Source: Ectothiorhodospiraceae bacterium (GTDB lineage Bacteria; Pseudomonadota; Gammaproteobacteria; Nitrococcales; Aquisalimonadaceae). From it: a stretch of 43,825 nt of DNA. Made by a program: the position numbers and the translations under genes. Below the pieces are notes generated by a model that worked only from the letters and a program-made list of their open reading frames with translations, did no database searches and was not told the origin of the DNA. Positions 3,241-26,932 of this stretch are shown here, in pieces; within the stretch, counting starts at the first letter, position 1, and each line of letters opens with the position of its first letter. The DNA lies in contig JAFIFU010000028.1 of NCBI GenBank assembly GCA_020831885.1, positions 1-43,825 of the forward strand. The letters run 5' to 3'.

Positions 3241-5901
3241 TCAGACCGTGGTGGGCATGGGCTTGTCCGGATCCAGGTCGTATTTCCTGATGGCCTCGGT
3301 CACGGTTTTCGCCTGGATCTGGCCGTCATCGGCCAGGGCCTTCAGCGCTGCCACGGTGATGTAGTAGCGGTCCACCTCGAAGAAGCGGCGCAATTGCTCC
3401 CGTGTATCGGAGCGGCCGAAGCCGTCGGTGCCCAGCACCACGTAGCGGCGGCCATCCATGTAGGGGCGGATCTGGTCGGCAAAGGCACGCATGTAGTCGG
3501 TGGCGGCCACCGCCGGACCCTTCCGCTTGCCCAGTTGTTCCTGAACCCAGCAGCTCCGGGGTTTCTTGTCCGGGTGCAGCATGTTCCAGCGCTCCACCGC
3601 CATGCCGTCGCGCCGCAGCTCGGTGAACGAGGGACAACTCCACAGGTCGGCGTCCACTTTCCAGTCCTTCTTCAGCAATTCAGCGGCGGCGATGGCCTCG
3701 CGAAAGATGGTGCCGGAGCCCAGCAACTGCACCCGGAGCTTGCCGCGACCGCCTTCCCTGAACAGGTACATACCCTTGCGGATGCCCTCCTCGGCGCCCT
3801 CGGGCATGGCCGGCTGCGGGTAGTTCTCGTTCATCATGGTGATGTAGTAGAAGACGTTCTCCTGCTCCTGGTACATGCGGCGCAGGCCGTCCTGGATGAT
3901 CACCGCCATTTCGTAGGGAAAGGTGGGATCGTAGGAGATGCAGTTGGGAATGGTGGCGGACAGCAGGTGGCTGTGACCATCCTGGTGCTGCAGCCCTTCG
4001 CCGTTCAGCGTGGTGCGCCCGGCGGTACCGCCCAGGAGAAAACCCCGGGCACGCATGTCGCCGGCCGCCCAGGCCAGATCCCCCACCCGCTGGAAGCCGA
4101 ACATGGAGTAGTAGGCGTAGAACGGGATCATGTTCACGCCGTGGTTGGAATAGGCGGTGGCGGCGGCGATCCAGGAACACATGGCGCCGGCCTCGTTGAT
4201 GCCCTCCTGCAGGATCTGTCCGTTCTTGCTCTCCTTGTAGACCATGAGCTGGTCGGCATCCTCGGGCTCGTAGAGCTGTCCCACCGAGGAGTAGATGCCC
4301 AACTGGCGGAACAGGCCCTCCATGCCAAAAGTGCGCGCCTCGTCCGGCACGATGGGCACGATGTGTTTGGCCAGTTGCTTGTCCCGGGTGAGGATGGCCA
4401 GAATGCGCACAAAGGCCATGGTGGTGGACATCTCCCGGTCACCGGACTCCTTGAGCAGCAGCTCGAAGGCGGAGAGTTCCGGTACTTTCAGCGGCTCGGC
4501 GTCGGTGCGGCGCTGGGGCAGATAGCCGCCCAGGGCCTTGCGGCGCTCCCGCAGGTACTGCATTTCGGGGCTGTCGTCCGCGGGCTTGTAGAACGGGGCC
4601 TCCTCCAGCTTGTCGTCGGGTACCGGGATGTCGAAGCGGTCGCGGAATTCCTTCAGCGACTCCATCGCCATCTTCTTCTGCTGGTGGGTGATGTTCTGCC
4701 CCTCCCCGGATTTACCCATGCCGTAGCCCTTGACCGTCTTGGCCAGGATCACGGTGGGCTGGCCGCGGTGATTCACCGCCGCGTGGTAGGCTGCATACAC
4801 CTTGTGCGGGTCGTGGCCGCCCCGGGACAGCCGGGCGATTTCCTCGTCCGACATACTGGCCACCATGTCCTTGAGTTCCGGGTACTTACCGAAGAAATGC
4901 TCGCGGGTGTAGGCACCGCCCTTGGCCTTGAAGTTCTGGTACTCGCCGTCCACCGCCTCTTCCATGCGCCGGCGGAGCAACCCCTTATCGTCCATGGCCA
5001 GCAGTTTGTCCCACTGGGAGCCCCAGATCACCTTGATCACATTCCAGCCGGTGCCGCGGAACTCGCCTTCCAGTTCCTGGATGATCTTGCCGTTTCCGCG
5101 CACCGGGCCGTCCAGGCGCTGCAGGTTGCAGTTGACCACGAACACCAGGTTGTCCAGGCCCTCGCGGGCGGCCACGTCGATGGCGCCCAGGGATTCGGGT
5201 TCGTCCATCTCGCCGTCACCCATGAACGCCCAGATCTTGCGGTTGCCCATGTCGATGACGCCGCGGTCGTGCAGGTATTTCATGAACCGGGCCTGGTAGA
5301 TGGCCATGATCGGCCCCAGACCCATGGATACGGTGGGGAACTGCCAGTAGTCCGGCATCAGCCACGGATGAGGGTAGGAGGTGACGCCGGTGCCGCCCAC
5401 GTCCTGCCGGAAACCCCGCAATTGCTCCTCGGTGAGCCGTCCCTCCAGGAAAGACCGGGCGTAGATGCCAGGGGAGGAGTGGCCCTGGATGAAGATCATG
5501 TCGCCCCCATGGTCATCGCTGGGCGCGTGCCAGAAGTGGTTGAAGCCCACATCGTAGAGCGTCGCGCTGGAAGCGAAACTGGCGATATGGCCGCCGATGC
5601 CCTCCCGGGCCCTGTTCGCCTGTAGCACCATGGCCATGGCGTTCCAGCGGATGATGGAACGGATGCGCCATTCCAGGTTGTGATCGCCTGGCGAACGGGT
5701 CTCCATGTGTGGGGGGATGGTATTGAGGTAGGCGGTGGTGGCCTTGAAGGGAATATGGCCGCCCCGGCGGCGCGCCTTGTCGACCAGGGACTCCAGCAGA
5801 AAGTGGGCGCGCTCGGGGCCTTCCTCCTCGATGACCGCCTCCAGTGCGTCCAGCCACTCCCGCGTTTCCTGTGGATCCACGTCTTGCGGTCGCTCAGCCA
5901 T
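3241..5901 (-). CDS. aceE: Pyruvate dehydrogenase E1 component, homodimeric type
   Basis: Thiamine-diphosphate-dependent decarboxylase that oxidises pyruvate and acetylates the lipoyl domain of AceF. The product is 886 residues, matching the single-chain gammaproteobacterial E1 (E. coli 887). The cofactor motif GDGEMDEPES is visible in the middle of the N-terminal half, and the N-terminus (MAERPQDVDPQETREWLDAL) aligns with the usual start. The reading frame stays open for 58 codons upstream to 6075, but that extension is basic and unlike the family, and a GAGAGG ribosome site 7-8 bases before 5901 supports the chosen start. It is the first gene of aceE-aceF-lpdA. The 265 bp upstream contain no PdhR-like operator that I can recognise. 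Confidence 0.97.
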   Translation of the reverse strand: MAERPQDVDPQETREWLDALEAVIEEEGPERAHFLLESLVDKARRRGGHIPFKATTAYLNTIPPHMETRSPGDHNLEWRIRSIIRWNAMAMVLQANRAREGIGGHIASFASSATLYDVGFNHFWHAPSDDHGGDMIFIQGHSSPGIYARSFLEGRLTEEQLRGFRQDVGGTGVTSYPHPWLMPDYWQFPTVSMGLGPIMAIYQARFMKYLHDRGVIDMGNRKIWAFMGDGEMDEPESLGAIDVAAREGLDNLVFVVNCNLQRLDGPVRGNGKIIQELEGEFRGTGWNVIKVIWGSQWDKLLAMDDKGLLRRRMEEAVDGEYQNFKAKGGAYTREHFFGKYPELKDMVASMSDEEIARLSRGGHDPHKVYAAYHAAVNHRGQPTVILAKTVKGYGMGKSGEGQNITHQQKKMAMESLKEFRDRFDIPVPDDKLEEAPFYKPADDSPEMQYLRERRKALGGYLPQRRTDAEPLKVPELSAFELLLKESGDREMSTTMAFVRILAILTRDKQLAKHIVPIVPDEARTFGMEGLFRQLGIYSSVGQLYEPEDADQLMVYKESKNGQILQEGINEAGAMCSWIAAATAYSNHGVNMIPFYAYYSMFGFQRVGDLAWAAGDMRARGFLLGGTAGRTTLNGEGLQHQDGHSHLLSATIPNCISYDPTFPYEMAVIIQDGLRRMYQEQENVFYYITMMNENYPQPAMPEGAEEGIRKGMYLFREGGRGKLRVQLLGSGTIFREAIAAAELLKKDWKVDADLWSCPSFTELRRDGMAVERWNMLHPDKKPRSCWVQEQLGKRKGPAVAATDYMRAFADQIRPYMDGRRYVVLGTDGFGRSDTREQLRRFFEVDRYYITVAALKALADDGQIQAKTVTEAIRKYDLDPDKPMPTTV

Positions 5902-25420: not shown

Positions 25421-26119
25421 ATGAACTGGCAAAAGGACATGGAACGGATGGTCGCCGGCTGGACGGAAACCCAGCAGCGGATGTGGGACAGCTGGATGGA
25501 TTCCGTCAGGCAGTTCACCCAGCGCGGTCTCCCGCGGGACGACTGGCGGCAGACCTACGAACAGAATCTGGAAGCCTGGGAACGTTCGGTGCAGCAGGCC
25601 CTGGAGGCGCAGAAGACCTGGGCCCACAAATGGTCGGAGGCCATGGGCGGCGCGCCGGATGCCCCCGAGGCCGCCCGCGCCTACAGTGAACAGGTGCAGA
25701 CCATGATGCAGGGCTGGACGGAATCCCAGCGGCAGCTTTGGTCAGCCTGGTTCGAGAGCATGCGCGACATGGATCCCCAGCGGCCCAGCACGGCCTGGGA
25801 GGAGGAAAGCCGCCAGGTCATGGAGGCATGGCAGCAAGCCGCTGAGCGTGCCCGGGAGACGCTGGACAACTGGGCGCGGTCCATGCCGCTGGCCGGGCTG
25901 GATGCCGGCTCGGAGGCGCCCACCGGGCGCGCTGCCGGACACGACCGGAGCAGGCAATCCGCCGGCTCCGGGGACTCCCCCCGCCAGGCCGCATCCAAGC
26001 CAAAGGCCGCCGGTGCGCGAGGTAAACGCAGCACCGGATCCGCCAGCGCTGCAGGGCAGGCTTCGGGTAAATCGGGCAAAGCGCCGGGAAAGGGGGCTAA
26101 GGGCAGCAAAAAGCCGTGA
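25421..26119 (+). CDS. Phasin/PhaE-like protein with duplicated Trp-rich helices and basic tail
   Basis: I do not recognise a named family with certainty. The 232-residue protein has an N-terminal helical part (1-155) rich in Trp, Gln and Glu and built as an A-B-A-B duplication: residues 10-30 and 95-115 share GWTE-x-Q-x3-W-x2-W-x-S, and residues 46-75 and 126-155 share an EAW ... W segment ending SEAM or ARSM. From about residue 165 it is a low-complexity Gly/Ala/Ser/Lys/Arg tail resembling histone-H1-like C-termini. Trp-rich amphipathic helices recall PhaE of class III PHA synthase and phasins; phasin plus basic tail recalls PhaF. No signal peptide. A GGGAGGG ribosome site precedes the ATG. 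It faces the CsrB-like RNA locus tail to tail. Confidence 0.75.
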   Translation: MNWQKDMERMVAGWTETQQRMWDSWMDSVRQFTQRGLPRDDWRQTYEQNLEAWERSVQQALEAQKTWAHKWSEAMGGAPDAPEAARAYSEQVQTMMQGWTESQRQLWSAWFESMRDMDPQRPSTAWEEESRQVMEAWQQAAERARETLDNWARSMPLAGLDAGSEAPTGRAAGHDRSRQSAGSGDSPRQAASKPKAAGARGKRSTGSASAAGQASGKSGKAPGKGAKGSKKP

Positions 26120-26153
26120 GCCGCGGGTGTGGCCAACTGGGAAAGGTGATGGG

Positions 26154-26185
26154 AAAAAAGTGACCGGCACATCCGCTGTGCCGGT
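26154..26185 (-). terminator. Rho-independent terminator of the CsrB-like RNA
   Basis: On the minus strand ACCGGCACA-GCGGA-TGTGCCGGT makes a 9-bp perfect stem (26163-26185), followed by CAC and six T (26159-26154). In the plus direction the same stem is followed by GTGTGGAGTG, so it is mainly a minus-strand terminator, although it could weakly end the convergent phasin-like transcript too. Confidence 0.85.
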
Positions 26186-26382
26186 GTGGAGTGTTCACTT
26201 AGCTGAAGGTGATCTGCGCGTTGGCCTTTCCCAGGCCTTCCCTTCCAGATTCCCTGACCCGCGCATGCAGTCCCTGCATTTTCCCTGTGGGTCGTCCCTG
26301 GCTGGTTCTGCGCTCGTCCCTGTTGTTTTCGGCGCTTCCTGCGACCGTCCCTGGTGATGGTGCTTCCTGCAATCCGATCACG
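26154..26382 (-). ncRNA. Candidate CsrB/RsmZ-type regulatory RNA (CsrA/RsmA sponge)
   Basis: On the minus strand twelve GGA triplets lie between 26375 and 26229, eight as CAGGA or CAGGGA, the core of the CsrA/RsmA site. Several are in loops of short perfect hairpins: TGC-AGGAA-GCA (26371-26361), ACC-AGGGAC-GGT (26355-26344), CGC-AGGAA-GCG (26343-26333), ATGCAG-GGA-CTGCAT (26279-26265), CAG-GGAAT-CTG (26256-26246) and GGCCT-GGGAA-AGGCC (26237-26223). The region ends in a Rho-independent terminator (26154-26185) and is preceded by a GacA-box-like dyad at 26439-26456. Known CsrB/C and RsmX/Y/Z RNAs have this plan and 100-370 nt length; this one would be about 230 nt. The 5' end is inferred from a weak -10. 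The only frame here, 26199-26468 on the minus strand, has no recognisable protein features. Confidence 0.85.
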
Positions 26383-26388
26383 GTTTCC

Positions 26389-26416
26389 ATCATGCCATGT
26401 CTGTTCGTCCCGGGAA
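26389..26416 (-). promoter_or_regulatory. Possible promoter of the CsrB-like RNA
   Basis: Minus-strand CATGAT (26394-26389) matches 4 of 6 of the -10 consensus; 16 bp upstream TTCCCG (26416-26411) matches 3 of 6 of the -35. A weak core promoter is expected for an activator-dependent gene. Transcription would start near 26382, placing the centre of the GacA-like dyad at about -66. The exact start is a guess. Confidence 0.4.
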
Positions 26417-26438
26417 GTCGGTAAATGGCGACAGTGTT

Positions 26439-26456
26439 TGTAAGAATATTCCTACA
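26439..26456. promoter_or_regulatory. GacA/UvrY-box-like 18-bp dyad
   Basis: TGTAAG-AATATT-CCTACA differs by one base from the published GacA upstream activating sequence TGTAAG-N6-CTTACA found before rsmX/Y/Z genes, and is an 18-bp palindrome with a single mismatched pair. It lies upstream of the GGA-rich minus-strand RNA and 23 bp before the dtd start, so it could also touch dtd expression. Confidence 0.8.
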
Positions 26457-26479
26457 CGGAATCCGCAAAGGGGGGAGAA

Positions 26480-26932
26480 ATGATCGCGTTGCTGCAGCGG
26501 GTCAGCCGCGCTTCAGTGACGGAGGCGGGGTGCGTGATCGGCGCCATCGGCCCCGGTTTGTTAGTGCTGCTGGGTGTTCAGCGCGGCGATGAAGAAAGGA
26601 CGGCGCGCCGACTGCTGCAGCGGGTGCTGGGCTACCGGGTCTTTGCGGACGCCCAGGGGAAAATGAATCTGTCGCTCACGGATGTGGGTGGCGGCCTGCT
26701 GCTGGTGCCGCAGTTCACCCTGTCGGCGGACACCCGCAAGGGCATGCGGCCGAGTTTCACGCCGGCGGCGGAGCCGGCGCAGGGGGAACGGCTGTTCGGA
26801 TATGTTCTGCAGCAGGCCAGGTCGGTGCATTCACCGGTTTCGGCCGGGCGCTTCGGCGCCGACATGCAGGTGGAACTGGTCAACGACGGTCCGGTGACGT
26901 TCTGGCTGGAGGTGTCGCCGGGCCGTGCTTGA
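26480..26932 (+). CDS. dtd: D-aminoacyl-tRNA deacylase
   Basis: Hydrolyses D-aminoacyl-tRNAs (and mischarged Gly-tRNA) for chiral proofreading. The 150-residue protein has both signatures: QFTL in [20 protein letters not shown] (77-81 region; Ser is more common than Pro at the first position) and the Gly-cisPro motif NDGPVTF (135-141; G137, P138). A GGGGGAG ribosome site lies just before the ATG. It is transcribed away from the CsrB-like RNA, sharing the intergenic dyad, and precedes the his genes by 179 bp. Confidence 0.96.

Follow-up and report, generated by a model that had tools for sequence, protein, structure and literature searches.

A putative GacA-boxed, GGA-rich RNA gene beside dtd with a 3′ block complementary to the csrA mRNA leader

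As judged from its sequence, the minus strand from 26382 to 26154 of the window (the whole stretch of DNA analyzed here, 43,825 nucleotides in length) is a conserved, GGA-rich putative RNA gene with a GacA-type box and a terminator. This RNA is probably a sponge of CsrA under the control of GacS/GacA (BarA/UvrY) that additionally carries a 3′ module for pairing with the csrA mRNA. We also consider it rather likely that a single GacA-driven RNA would act on CsrA at two levels, namely on the protein by means of its GGA array and on the message by means of a co-evolving 3′ antisense segment. CsrB/Rsm sponges are known chiefly as protein decoys, and to our knowledge no csrA-pairing second module is known for this class. 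A sponge tail that is complementary to the mRNA leader of the sponged protein, and on average co-varies with it, would close a new regulatory loop; if true, one sponge would sequester a protein and also target the gene for that same protein.

Organization of the Locus

The features of the locus are the following, in positions of the window:

26480 to 26932, plus strand: dtd, D-aminoacyl-tRNA deacylase (PF02580, 4.2e-52), the conserved neighbor
26439 to 26456, no strand assigned: GacA/UvrY-type 18-nt inverted repeat TGTAAGAATATTCCTACA, one mismatch to TGTAAGNNNNNNCTTACA, centered at about −65 from the presumed start
26389 to 26433, minus strand: conserved promoter region, TGTCG..TTTACCGACTT and the −10-like GGCATGAT (hexamer 26394 to 26389), from alignment A3
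26154 to 26382, minus strand: putative sRNA gene of about 229 nt, GGA-rich, divergent from dtd, presumably transcribed
26222 to 26382, minus strand: putative CsrA-titrating array, 12 GGA, 8 of them in CAGGA or CAGGGA
26193 to 26218, minus strand: conserved 3′ block CGCAGATCACCTTCAGCTAAGTGAAC, from sequence alignment and comparison with the csrA leader
26209 to 26194, minus strand: csrA-complementary part of the 3′ block, CCTTCAGCTAAGTGAA; partner in the csrA leader at G000:C94:3320-3305 (minus strand)
26154 to 26185, minus strand: intrinsic-terminator-like site with a 9-bp stem, the loop GCGGA and six U, strongly conserved (alignment A1)
25421 to 26119, plus strand: phasin-like gene, convergent with the sRNA gene (PF09361, 5.2e-05, 23.8 bits, just below the cut-off of 24.9)

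A first-pass annotation of this DNA had proposed a sponge RNA of the CsrB/RsmZ kind with ends at 26154 and 26382, and these ends agree with the putative transcript, which is delimited by the −10-like CATGAT (26394 to 26389) and the end of the U-run (26154). The proposed terminator with a 9-bp stem and U6 is likewise present on the minus strand: the stem ACCGGCACA-GCGGA-TGTGCCGGT comprises nine pairs, the six T begin three bases past the stem, and a GGA sits in the loop, while shuffles of the 601-base stretch contain a mean of 0.6 terminator-like sites. As for the flanking genes it had named, dtd is confirmed by its Pfam match, and the other neighbor can be called phasin-like on the strength of a match just under the cut-off.

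The box at 26439-26456 had not been mentioned in that annotation. Excerpts of PMC4682653 give TGTAAGNNNNNNCTTACA as the 18-nt UvrY/GacA consensus, and boxes of the same form precede rsmY and rsmZ in Pseudomonas according to excerpts of PMC4353343. After the box, alignment A3 (11 sequences) shows TGTCG..TTTACCGACTT and a −10-like GTGGCAnTAT, so that the box and the start-proximal elements are conserved in relatives. From these conserved elements the start is placed near 26382, which brings the center of the box to about −65; a simple sigma-70 scan of 26000-26600 returned no promoter. When the genome was searched with the pattern TGTAAGNNNNNNCYTACA, allowing at most one mismatch, the box was the sole match. 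However, the same pattern read backwards matched 12 times, and TGTAAGNNNNNNCYTACA allows C or T at the position at which site and consensus differ, a choice made after the site had been seen. The weight of the box therefore rests on its place and its conservation rather than on its rarity, and taken alone it would be a weak argument for GacA control.

An Accessible GGA Array

Twelve GGA triplets, eight of them within CAGGA or CAGGGA, had been counted in the first-pass annotation, and both numbers were borne out for a 150-nt stretch of the minus strand. The raw GGA count is nevertheless not unusual, as 12 per 150 nt are also reached at +25434 and −7067 in the window, and raw density was for this reason dropped as evidence. 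The CAGG(G)A motif, in contrast, occurs 8 times per 150 nt at the locus and at most 4 times anywhere else in the window, which makes the locus the densest site by a factor of two. A triple CAGGGA array has four overlapping matches in the 4,134,570-base genome, all of them at the sRNA locus, against two matches for its backwards control in the same genome. The trimmed transcript contains 13 GGA, compared to a mean of 7.7 in dinucleotide shuffles.

Both hairpins singled out in the first-pass annotation (ATGCAG-GGA-CTGCAT and GGCCT-GGGAA-AGGCC) are present as sequence. Its statement that at least six GGA are presented in loops holds only in part: the minimum-energy fold places just 4 of the 13 in hairpin loops, yet the GGA are more accessible than in shuffles, with a mean unpaired probability of 0.67 versus 0.47 ± 0.10 in dinucleotide-shuffled sequences (predicted fold). 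The overall stability of the fold is mildly above chance (z −1.9). Among 19 homologues, the GGA count exceeds the shuffle mean in all 19 and GGA accessibility exceeds it in 18, being equal in one, with an excess below two standard deviations in most; in this set the trimmed transcripts of G040 and G014 are too short, since the box finder took a wrong site. The consensus fold of the 11-sequence full-length alignment contains only the terminator and one helix of four pairs, with a covariation term of 0.02, and conserved array hairpins are accordingly not proven. By eye, two genomes of the alignment read GACCC/GGGUC and three read GACUC/GAGUC.

The genome encodes the partners that a Csr sponge would be expected to have. 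csrA is present in one copy (G000:C94), and the GacA homologue, which shares 57% identity with E. coli UvrY, is encoded directly upstream of a uvrC-like gene (so labeled from its sequence and position), an arrangement as in E. coli. With many, largely accessible GGA, a GacA box upstream together with GacA, and csrA in the genome, the putative RNA shares several features of the CsrB/Rsm class; it looks like CsrB/RsmZ and probably works in the same way. The first-pass annotation had called it undescribed, which is true of Rfam: a scan of the window and 20 loci (the 19 homologues and L058) with Rfam models including CsrB, CsrC and RsmX/Y/Z gave none at cut-off, and the RsmY model scored 12.6 bits on the locus versus a cut-off of 57.

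Recurrence Beside dtd and Association With GacA

Comparison of the dtd region among relatives, as the first-pass annotation had proposed, revealed that the box, the GGA array and the terminator recur beside dtd. At the DNA level, homologues turned up in 10 relatives, which makes 11 of 59 genomes when the window's own is counted. A model of the 3′ 66 positions of the RNA, R1, matched 25 of the 54 genomes of the order at E ≤ 0.01, 17 of them above 60 bits and eight more weakly; six of the weaker matches lie beside dtd (G006, G023, G025, G035, G038, G045) and two elsewhere (G044, G046). Divergent boxes with GGA arrays were moreover read upstream of dtd in G015, G020, G038, G045, G022, G019, G025, G031, G033, and G035. 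When the locus was defined by a box that has at most four mismatches and begins no more than 120 nt from dtd, together with at least five GGA per 150 nt, with the box and GGA thresholds fixed after the loci had been read, it was present beside dtd in 28 of the 52 testable genomes of the order; G011, whose contig piece lacks dtd, and G052, which has no dtd match, were left out.

That the locus is GGA-rich by chance, or lies within a gene for a small protein, is, against this background, the least credible of the readings weighed here. Its raw GGA density is equalled elsewhere in the window and an 89-codon open reading frame overlaps the locus, but that frame matched no Pfam family, the 3′ end is near-invariant in 11 sequences, and box and array lie beside dtd in more than half of the genomes.

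The presence of the locus closely follows that of GacA (matches at E ≤ 1e-50). Among the 52 genomes, 27 have both, one has the RNA only, four have GacA only and 20 have neither (Fisher 1.6e-9, phylogeny not corrected for); with a limit of three box mismatches, the respective numbers are 23, 1, 8, and 20 (Fisher 4.8e-7, likewise not corrected for phylogeny). The genome with the RNA only, G013, is an 82%-complete draft, and those with GacA only (G037, G039, G041, G043) are drafts that are 77-83% complete. Genera g4 (G012 both; G005, G008, and G010 neither) and g14 (G036, G040, and G042 both; G049 and G053 neither) are concordant, and genus g10 is mixed (G019, G025, G031, G033, and G035 both; G027 and G029 neither; G041 and G043 GacA only). 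In family f5, the GacA matches are only 45-54% identical and may not all be orthologues. CsrA, on the other hand, is found in 50 of the 54 genomes, being missing from G008, G023, G049, and G051. An RNA that tracks GacA while CsrA is nearly universal is tied to its expected activator. In G005 and G008, both without GacA, dtd adjoins a phasin-like gene (by eye) with no array between them. The first-pass annotation had held that loss of the array in close relatives with the flanking genes retained would speak against a sponge; the 24 dtd loci without an array turned out to belong to 20 genomes without a GacA match and four incomplete drafts with one.

Taken together, the GacA-type box, the presence of csrA and GacA in the genome, the recurrence beside dtd and the link with GacA lend comparative support to the reading of this putative RNA as a Csr/Rsm sponge, and the dtd-linked locus offers a route to Csr RNAs of this order that escape Rfam models.

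Several further observations concern the distribution of the RNA. Among 369 genomes of the class, a set that includes the in-order G000, G014, and G016, R1 gave no match above 34 bits outside the order, and the out-of-order matches L127-L129 were, by reading, unlike the RNA. G007, whose full locus lies on C292, has a second, partial R1 match at a contig edge (G007:C99:1-42, L124; 32.7 bits, model positions 24-66), which is either a second copy or an assembly duplicate. The dtd-upstream sequence of L058, an Ectothiorhodospiraceae MAG, is by eye the same as that of G035, a relative from the same order as the window, which assigns the window to a gammaproteobacterium from that neighborhood. In a Lysobacterales MAG (L041), which belongs to a different order, a GacA-like box with one mismatch, TGTAAGCCGTTTCCTACA, lies upstream of dtd at 1844 and is followed by GGA in hairpin-like contexts (by eye) and a terminator-like T-run beside dtd, which suggests that a dtd-linked Csr RNA may predate the order studied here. 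A Granulosicoccaceae MAG (L053) has a symmetric GacA-like box, TGTAGGAATTTTCCTACA, upstream of its dtd at 4001, at a distance of about 30 nt from the gene; the stretch after the box is GGA-poor. The 14 genomes of genus g9, which belong to the same order and measure 1.2-2.2 Mb, gave no GacA match at E ≤ 1e-50; the RNA locus is absent in the 13 of them with a dtd match, and csrA is kept in 13 of the 14.

Complementarity of the 3′ Block to the csrA Leader

The sponge reading of the first-pass annotation is incomplete in one respect, as it misses a 3′ block complementary to csrA. Conservation along the RNA is highest in CGCAGATCACCTTCAGCTAAGTGAAC and the terminator that follows, rather than in the GGA array. 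The csrA leader of the window's genome carries, 168 nt ahead of the start codon, the sequence TTCACTTGGCTGAAGG, which can form 16 pairs with the block, one of them G·U. The complementarity was first seen on reading the csrA leader; an earlier target search with a 20-nt pattern of the block and three mismatches had missed the csrA element and returned the sRNA gene itself and three weak matches, each at three mismatches.

Fifty genomes have a csrA match, and from 40 of these the region upstream of csrA was retrieved. In the 17 block-bearing genomes among the 40 (G023, in which no csrA was found, and G006, which has no block, were left out), the longest uninterrupted duplex between the block and the 309-nt csrA leader was compared to 200 dinucleotide shuffles. 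By this run score, at most 4 of the 200 shuffles were as good in 15 of the 17 genomes; G034 is marginal (12 of 200), and G012, with 180 of 200, has a block that lacks an uninterrupted match. When duplex energy is used instead, 11 of the 17 stand at no more than 1 in 200, four (G009, G003, G016, and G014) at 13-14, and G013 (102) and G012 (138) do not stand out. The run score of the window's block against its own csrA is 15.3. Its best run on the remainder of the 43.8-kb window, both strands included, reaches 11.0, and with the csrA leaders of the 21 block-less genomes it attains 10.0 at most (next 8.3). When the sRNA is scanned along its length, no stretch pairs better than the block in 16 of the 17 genomes, the exception again being G012.

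In 14 genomes, the csrA element lies 114-254 nt upstream of the start codon, and in 13 of them the stop codon of a gene that we take to be lysC-like, from its C-terminal sequence, precedes the element, which is therefore intergenic in those 13. The element is presumably transcribed. The predicted fold of the sRNA engages part of the block in base pairs (mean unpaired probability 0.36), which counts against pairing with csrA, and single folds of the csrA leaders showed no consistent effect on the start region. In ten genomes that bear the array without the block, csrA complementarity was not above shuffles (60 shuffles each), so the module is not universal; the sponge seems to be more widely distributed than the module, which would be specific to a clade. 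G045, whose csrA start was not recognized, is missing from this comparison and from that of leader variants.

Block and leader co-vary on average. Over the 17 genomes, the mean run of own pairs is 12.3 versus 9.4 for permuted pairs, with 0 of 20,000 permutations as good, and with one genome per genus (9) the values are 11.9 and 8.7, again with 0 of 20,000. Matched variants, given as block/leader, are CUAUG/CAUAG in G004 and G007, CACAGUGAACC/GGUUCACUGUG in G016, GUGAUAU/GUAUCAC in G001, UCCAGCC/GGCUGGA in G017 and, with G·U pairs, GUGUAAGUCA/UGACUUGCAU in G014. G006, which has box and array and lacks the block, has GCTTGACTGATGG in its csrA leader where its genus-mate G009 has GCTTAGCTGAAGG. 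The signal is one of averages: just 6 of the 17 blocks (G001, G004, G009, G011, G014, and G016) pair best with the leader of their own genome, and the blocks of G003, G012, G017, G034, and G042 score higher with the leader of another genome. G053, which has lost the RNA, counts against co-variation too, since its leader reads CACGTGGCTTGAT compared to CACTTGGCTTGAT in G042, a change of one base in 13. Co-variation could also be imitated by gene conversion between the two loci, which seems unlikely for segments of 10-18 nt. A conserved complementarity to one mRNA that co-varies on average is the mark of a base-pairing sRNA, and the natural variants of block and leader make pairing with csrA directly testable.

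These data bear on three other explanations of the block. According to the first, the RNA is a plain sponge of the CsrB/RsmZ type, the block being kept as RNA structure or as a flank of the terminator with its csrA complementarity unused. Array, box and synteny by themselves would fit an ordinary sponge, as would the block-less relatives without a csrA match above shuffles and the preference of so few blocks for their own leader; the 15 of 17 genomes whose complementarity greatly exceeds that of shuffles, the permutation result and the position specificity of the block in 16 of 17 argue against it, and we regard it as unlikely, at something under one chance in five. A second explanation takes the shared element to be a DNA site of a common regulator, present in opposite orientation in the two genes. 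Both loci belong to one expected regulon, and a shared site could drift together, but the sRNA gene has its element at the 3′ end, after the array and before the terminator, a long way from the promoter. It further keeps a single antisense orientation, shows G·U-compatible differences in G000, G009, and G014, and has no equal copy elsewhere within the 43.8-kb window, all of which leaves this explanation very improbable.

The third explanation, a mimic of the 16S rRNA 3′ tail GAUCACCUCC with either the GTPase Era or Shine-Dalgarno sequences as its partner, was ranked low after the csrA complementarity had been found, and we give it even less credence than a DNA site. Excerpts of PMC10582724 describe GAUCACCUCC as the sequence recognized by Era, and it occurs exactly in 6 of the 19 homologues (G014, G017, G034, G036, G040, and G042). 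GAUCA is, however, changed to GAGCA in G003, G009, G011, and G013 and to UUUCA in G016, and all five keep csrA complementarity by run score. The exact tail sequence GATCACCTCC in these 6 of 19 is probably a by-product of complementarity to csrA.

Relation to Known Csr/Rsm RNAs

The putative RNA resembles Pseudomonas RsmY, RsmZ, and RsmX (RF00195 and relatives) in its GGA in and between predicted hairpins, its intrinsic-terminator-like site and its intergenic gene, as well as in the GacA box upstream (excerpts of PMC4353343). It differs from them in its position beside dtd, in scoring below the Rfam cut-off and in its csrA-complementary 3′ block. We know of no such block in Pseudomonas RsmX/Y/Z. 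E. coli CsrB, which is longer than the approximately 229 nt of the present RNA, and CsrC share with it multiple GGA sites and are set apart from it by the csrA-complementary block. They also share the UvrY-type 18-nt inverted repeat, which in E. coli lies at about −183 instead of about −65 (excerpts of PMC4682653), and they contain 22 (CsrB) and 14 (CsrC) GGA compared to 13 in the trimmed RNA here (excerpts of PMC11882849).

A combination of CsrA binding through GGA with base-pairing to mRNAs is described for E. coli McaS in excerpts of PMC10729762, according to which McaS has four GGA motifs, targets csgD and flhD and sequesters CsrA less than CsrB/C do. Unlike McaS, the RNA studied here is GGA-rich, has a GacA box and is complementary to csrA itself. 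The Csr sponges Pf1, Pf2, and Pf3 of Pseudoalteromonas fuliginea have predicted imperfect pairing to a few mRNAs; the predicted partner of csrA mRNA in that species, however, is not one of the sponges but a separate antisense RNA, sRNA0654 (both from excerpts of PMC11882849). Our literature search, covering such partial texts, found no Csr/Rsm sponge pairing with csrA mRNA, which is not to say that none is in print.

Possible Mode of Action

In the preferred reading, a sponge with a csrA-pairing 3′ module, phosphorylated GacA would bind the box and turn on the RNA of about 229 nt. The GGA array would then titrate CsrA off its mRNAs, a step suggested by the design of the RNA, which presumably binds CsrA. 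At the same time, the 3′ block would pair in the cell with the leader of the csrA mRNA. Such pairing might lower CsrA synthesis or the stability of the csrA mRNA, so that CsrA would be antagonized at the levels of both protein and message. This direction is the least certain part of the proposal: given that pairing occurs, that it lowers csrA output is a guess with about even chances of being right.

Conversely, the csrA mRNA could capture or destabilize the sponge, a feedback that would protect CsrA when csrA mRNA is abundant. Complementarity is symmetric and thus equally compatible with this direction, and the csrA leaders of genus g2 contain, by eye, a GGA in hairpin-like sequence after the element. 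Induced CsrB is more abundant than csrA mRNA, and the sRNA would presumably outnumber its partner in the same way once induced, making capture by the mRNA less effective; we put this reverse direction at about one chance in five. The GGA concerned is found in the leaders of G009, G011, G003, G013, and G006 (L201-L205) and is possibly a CsrA autoregulation site beside the sRNA pairing site; in genus g2, pairing could then, speculatively, compete with CsrA autoregulation.
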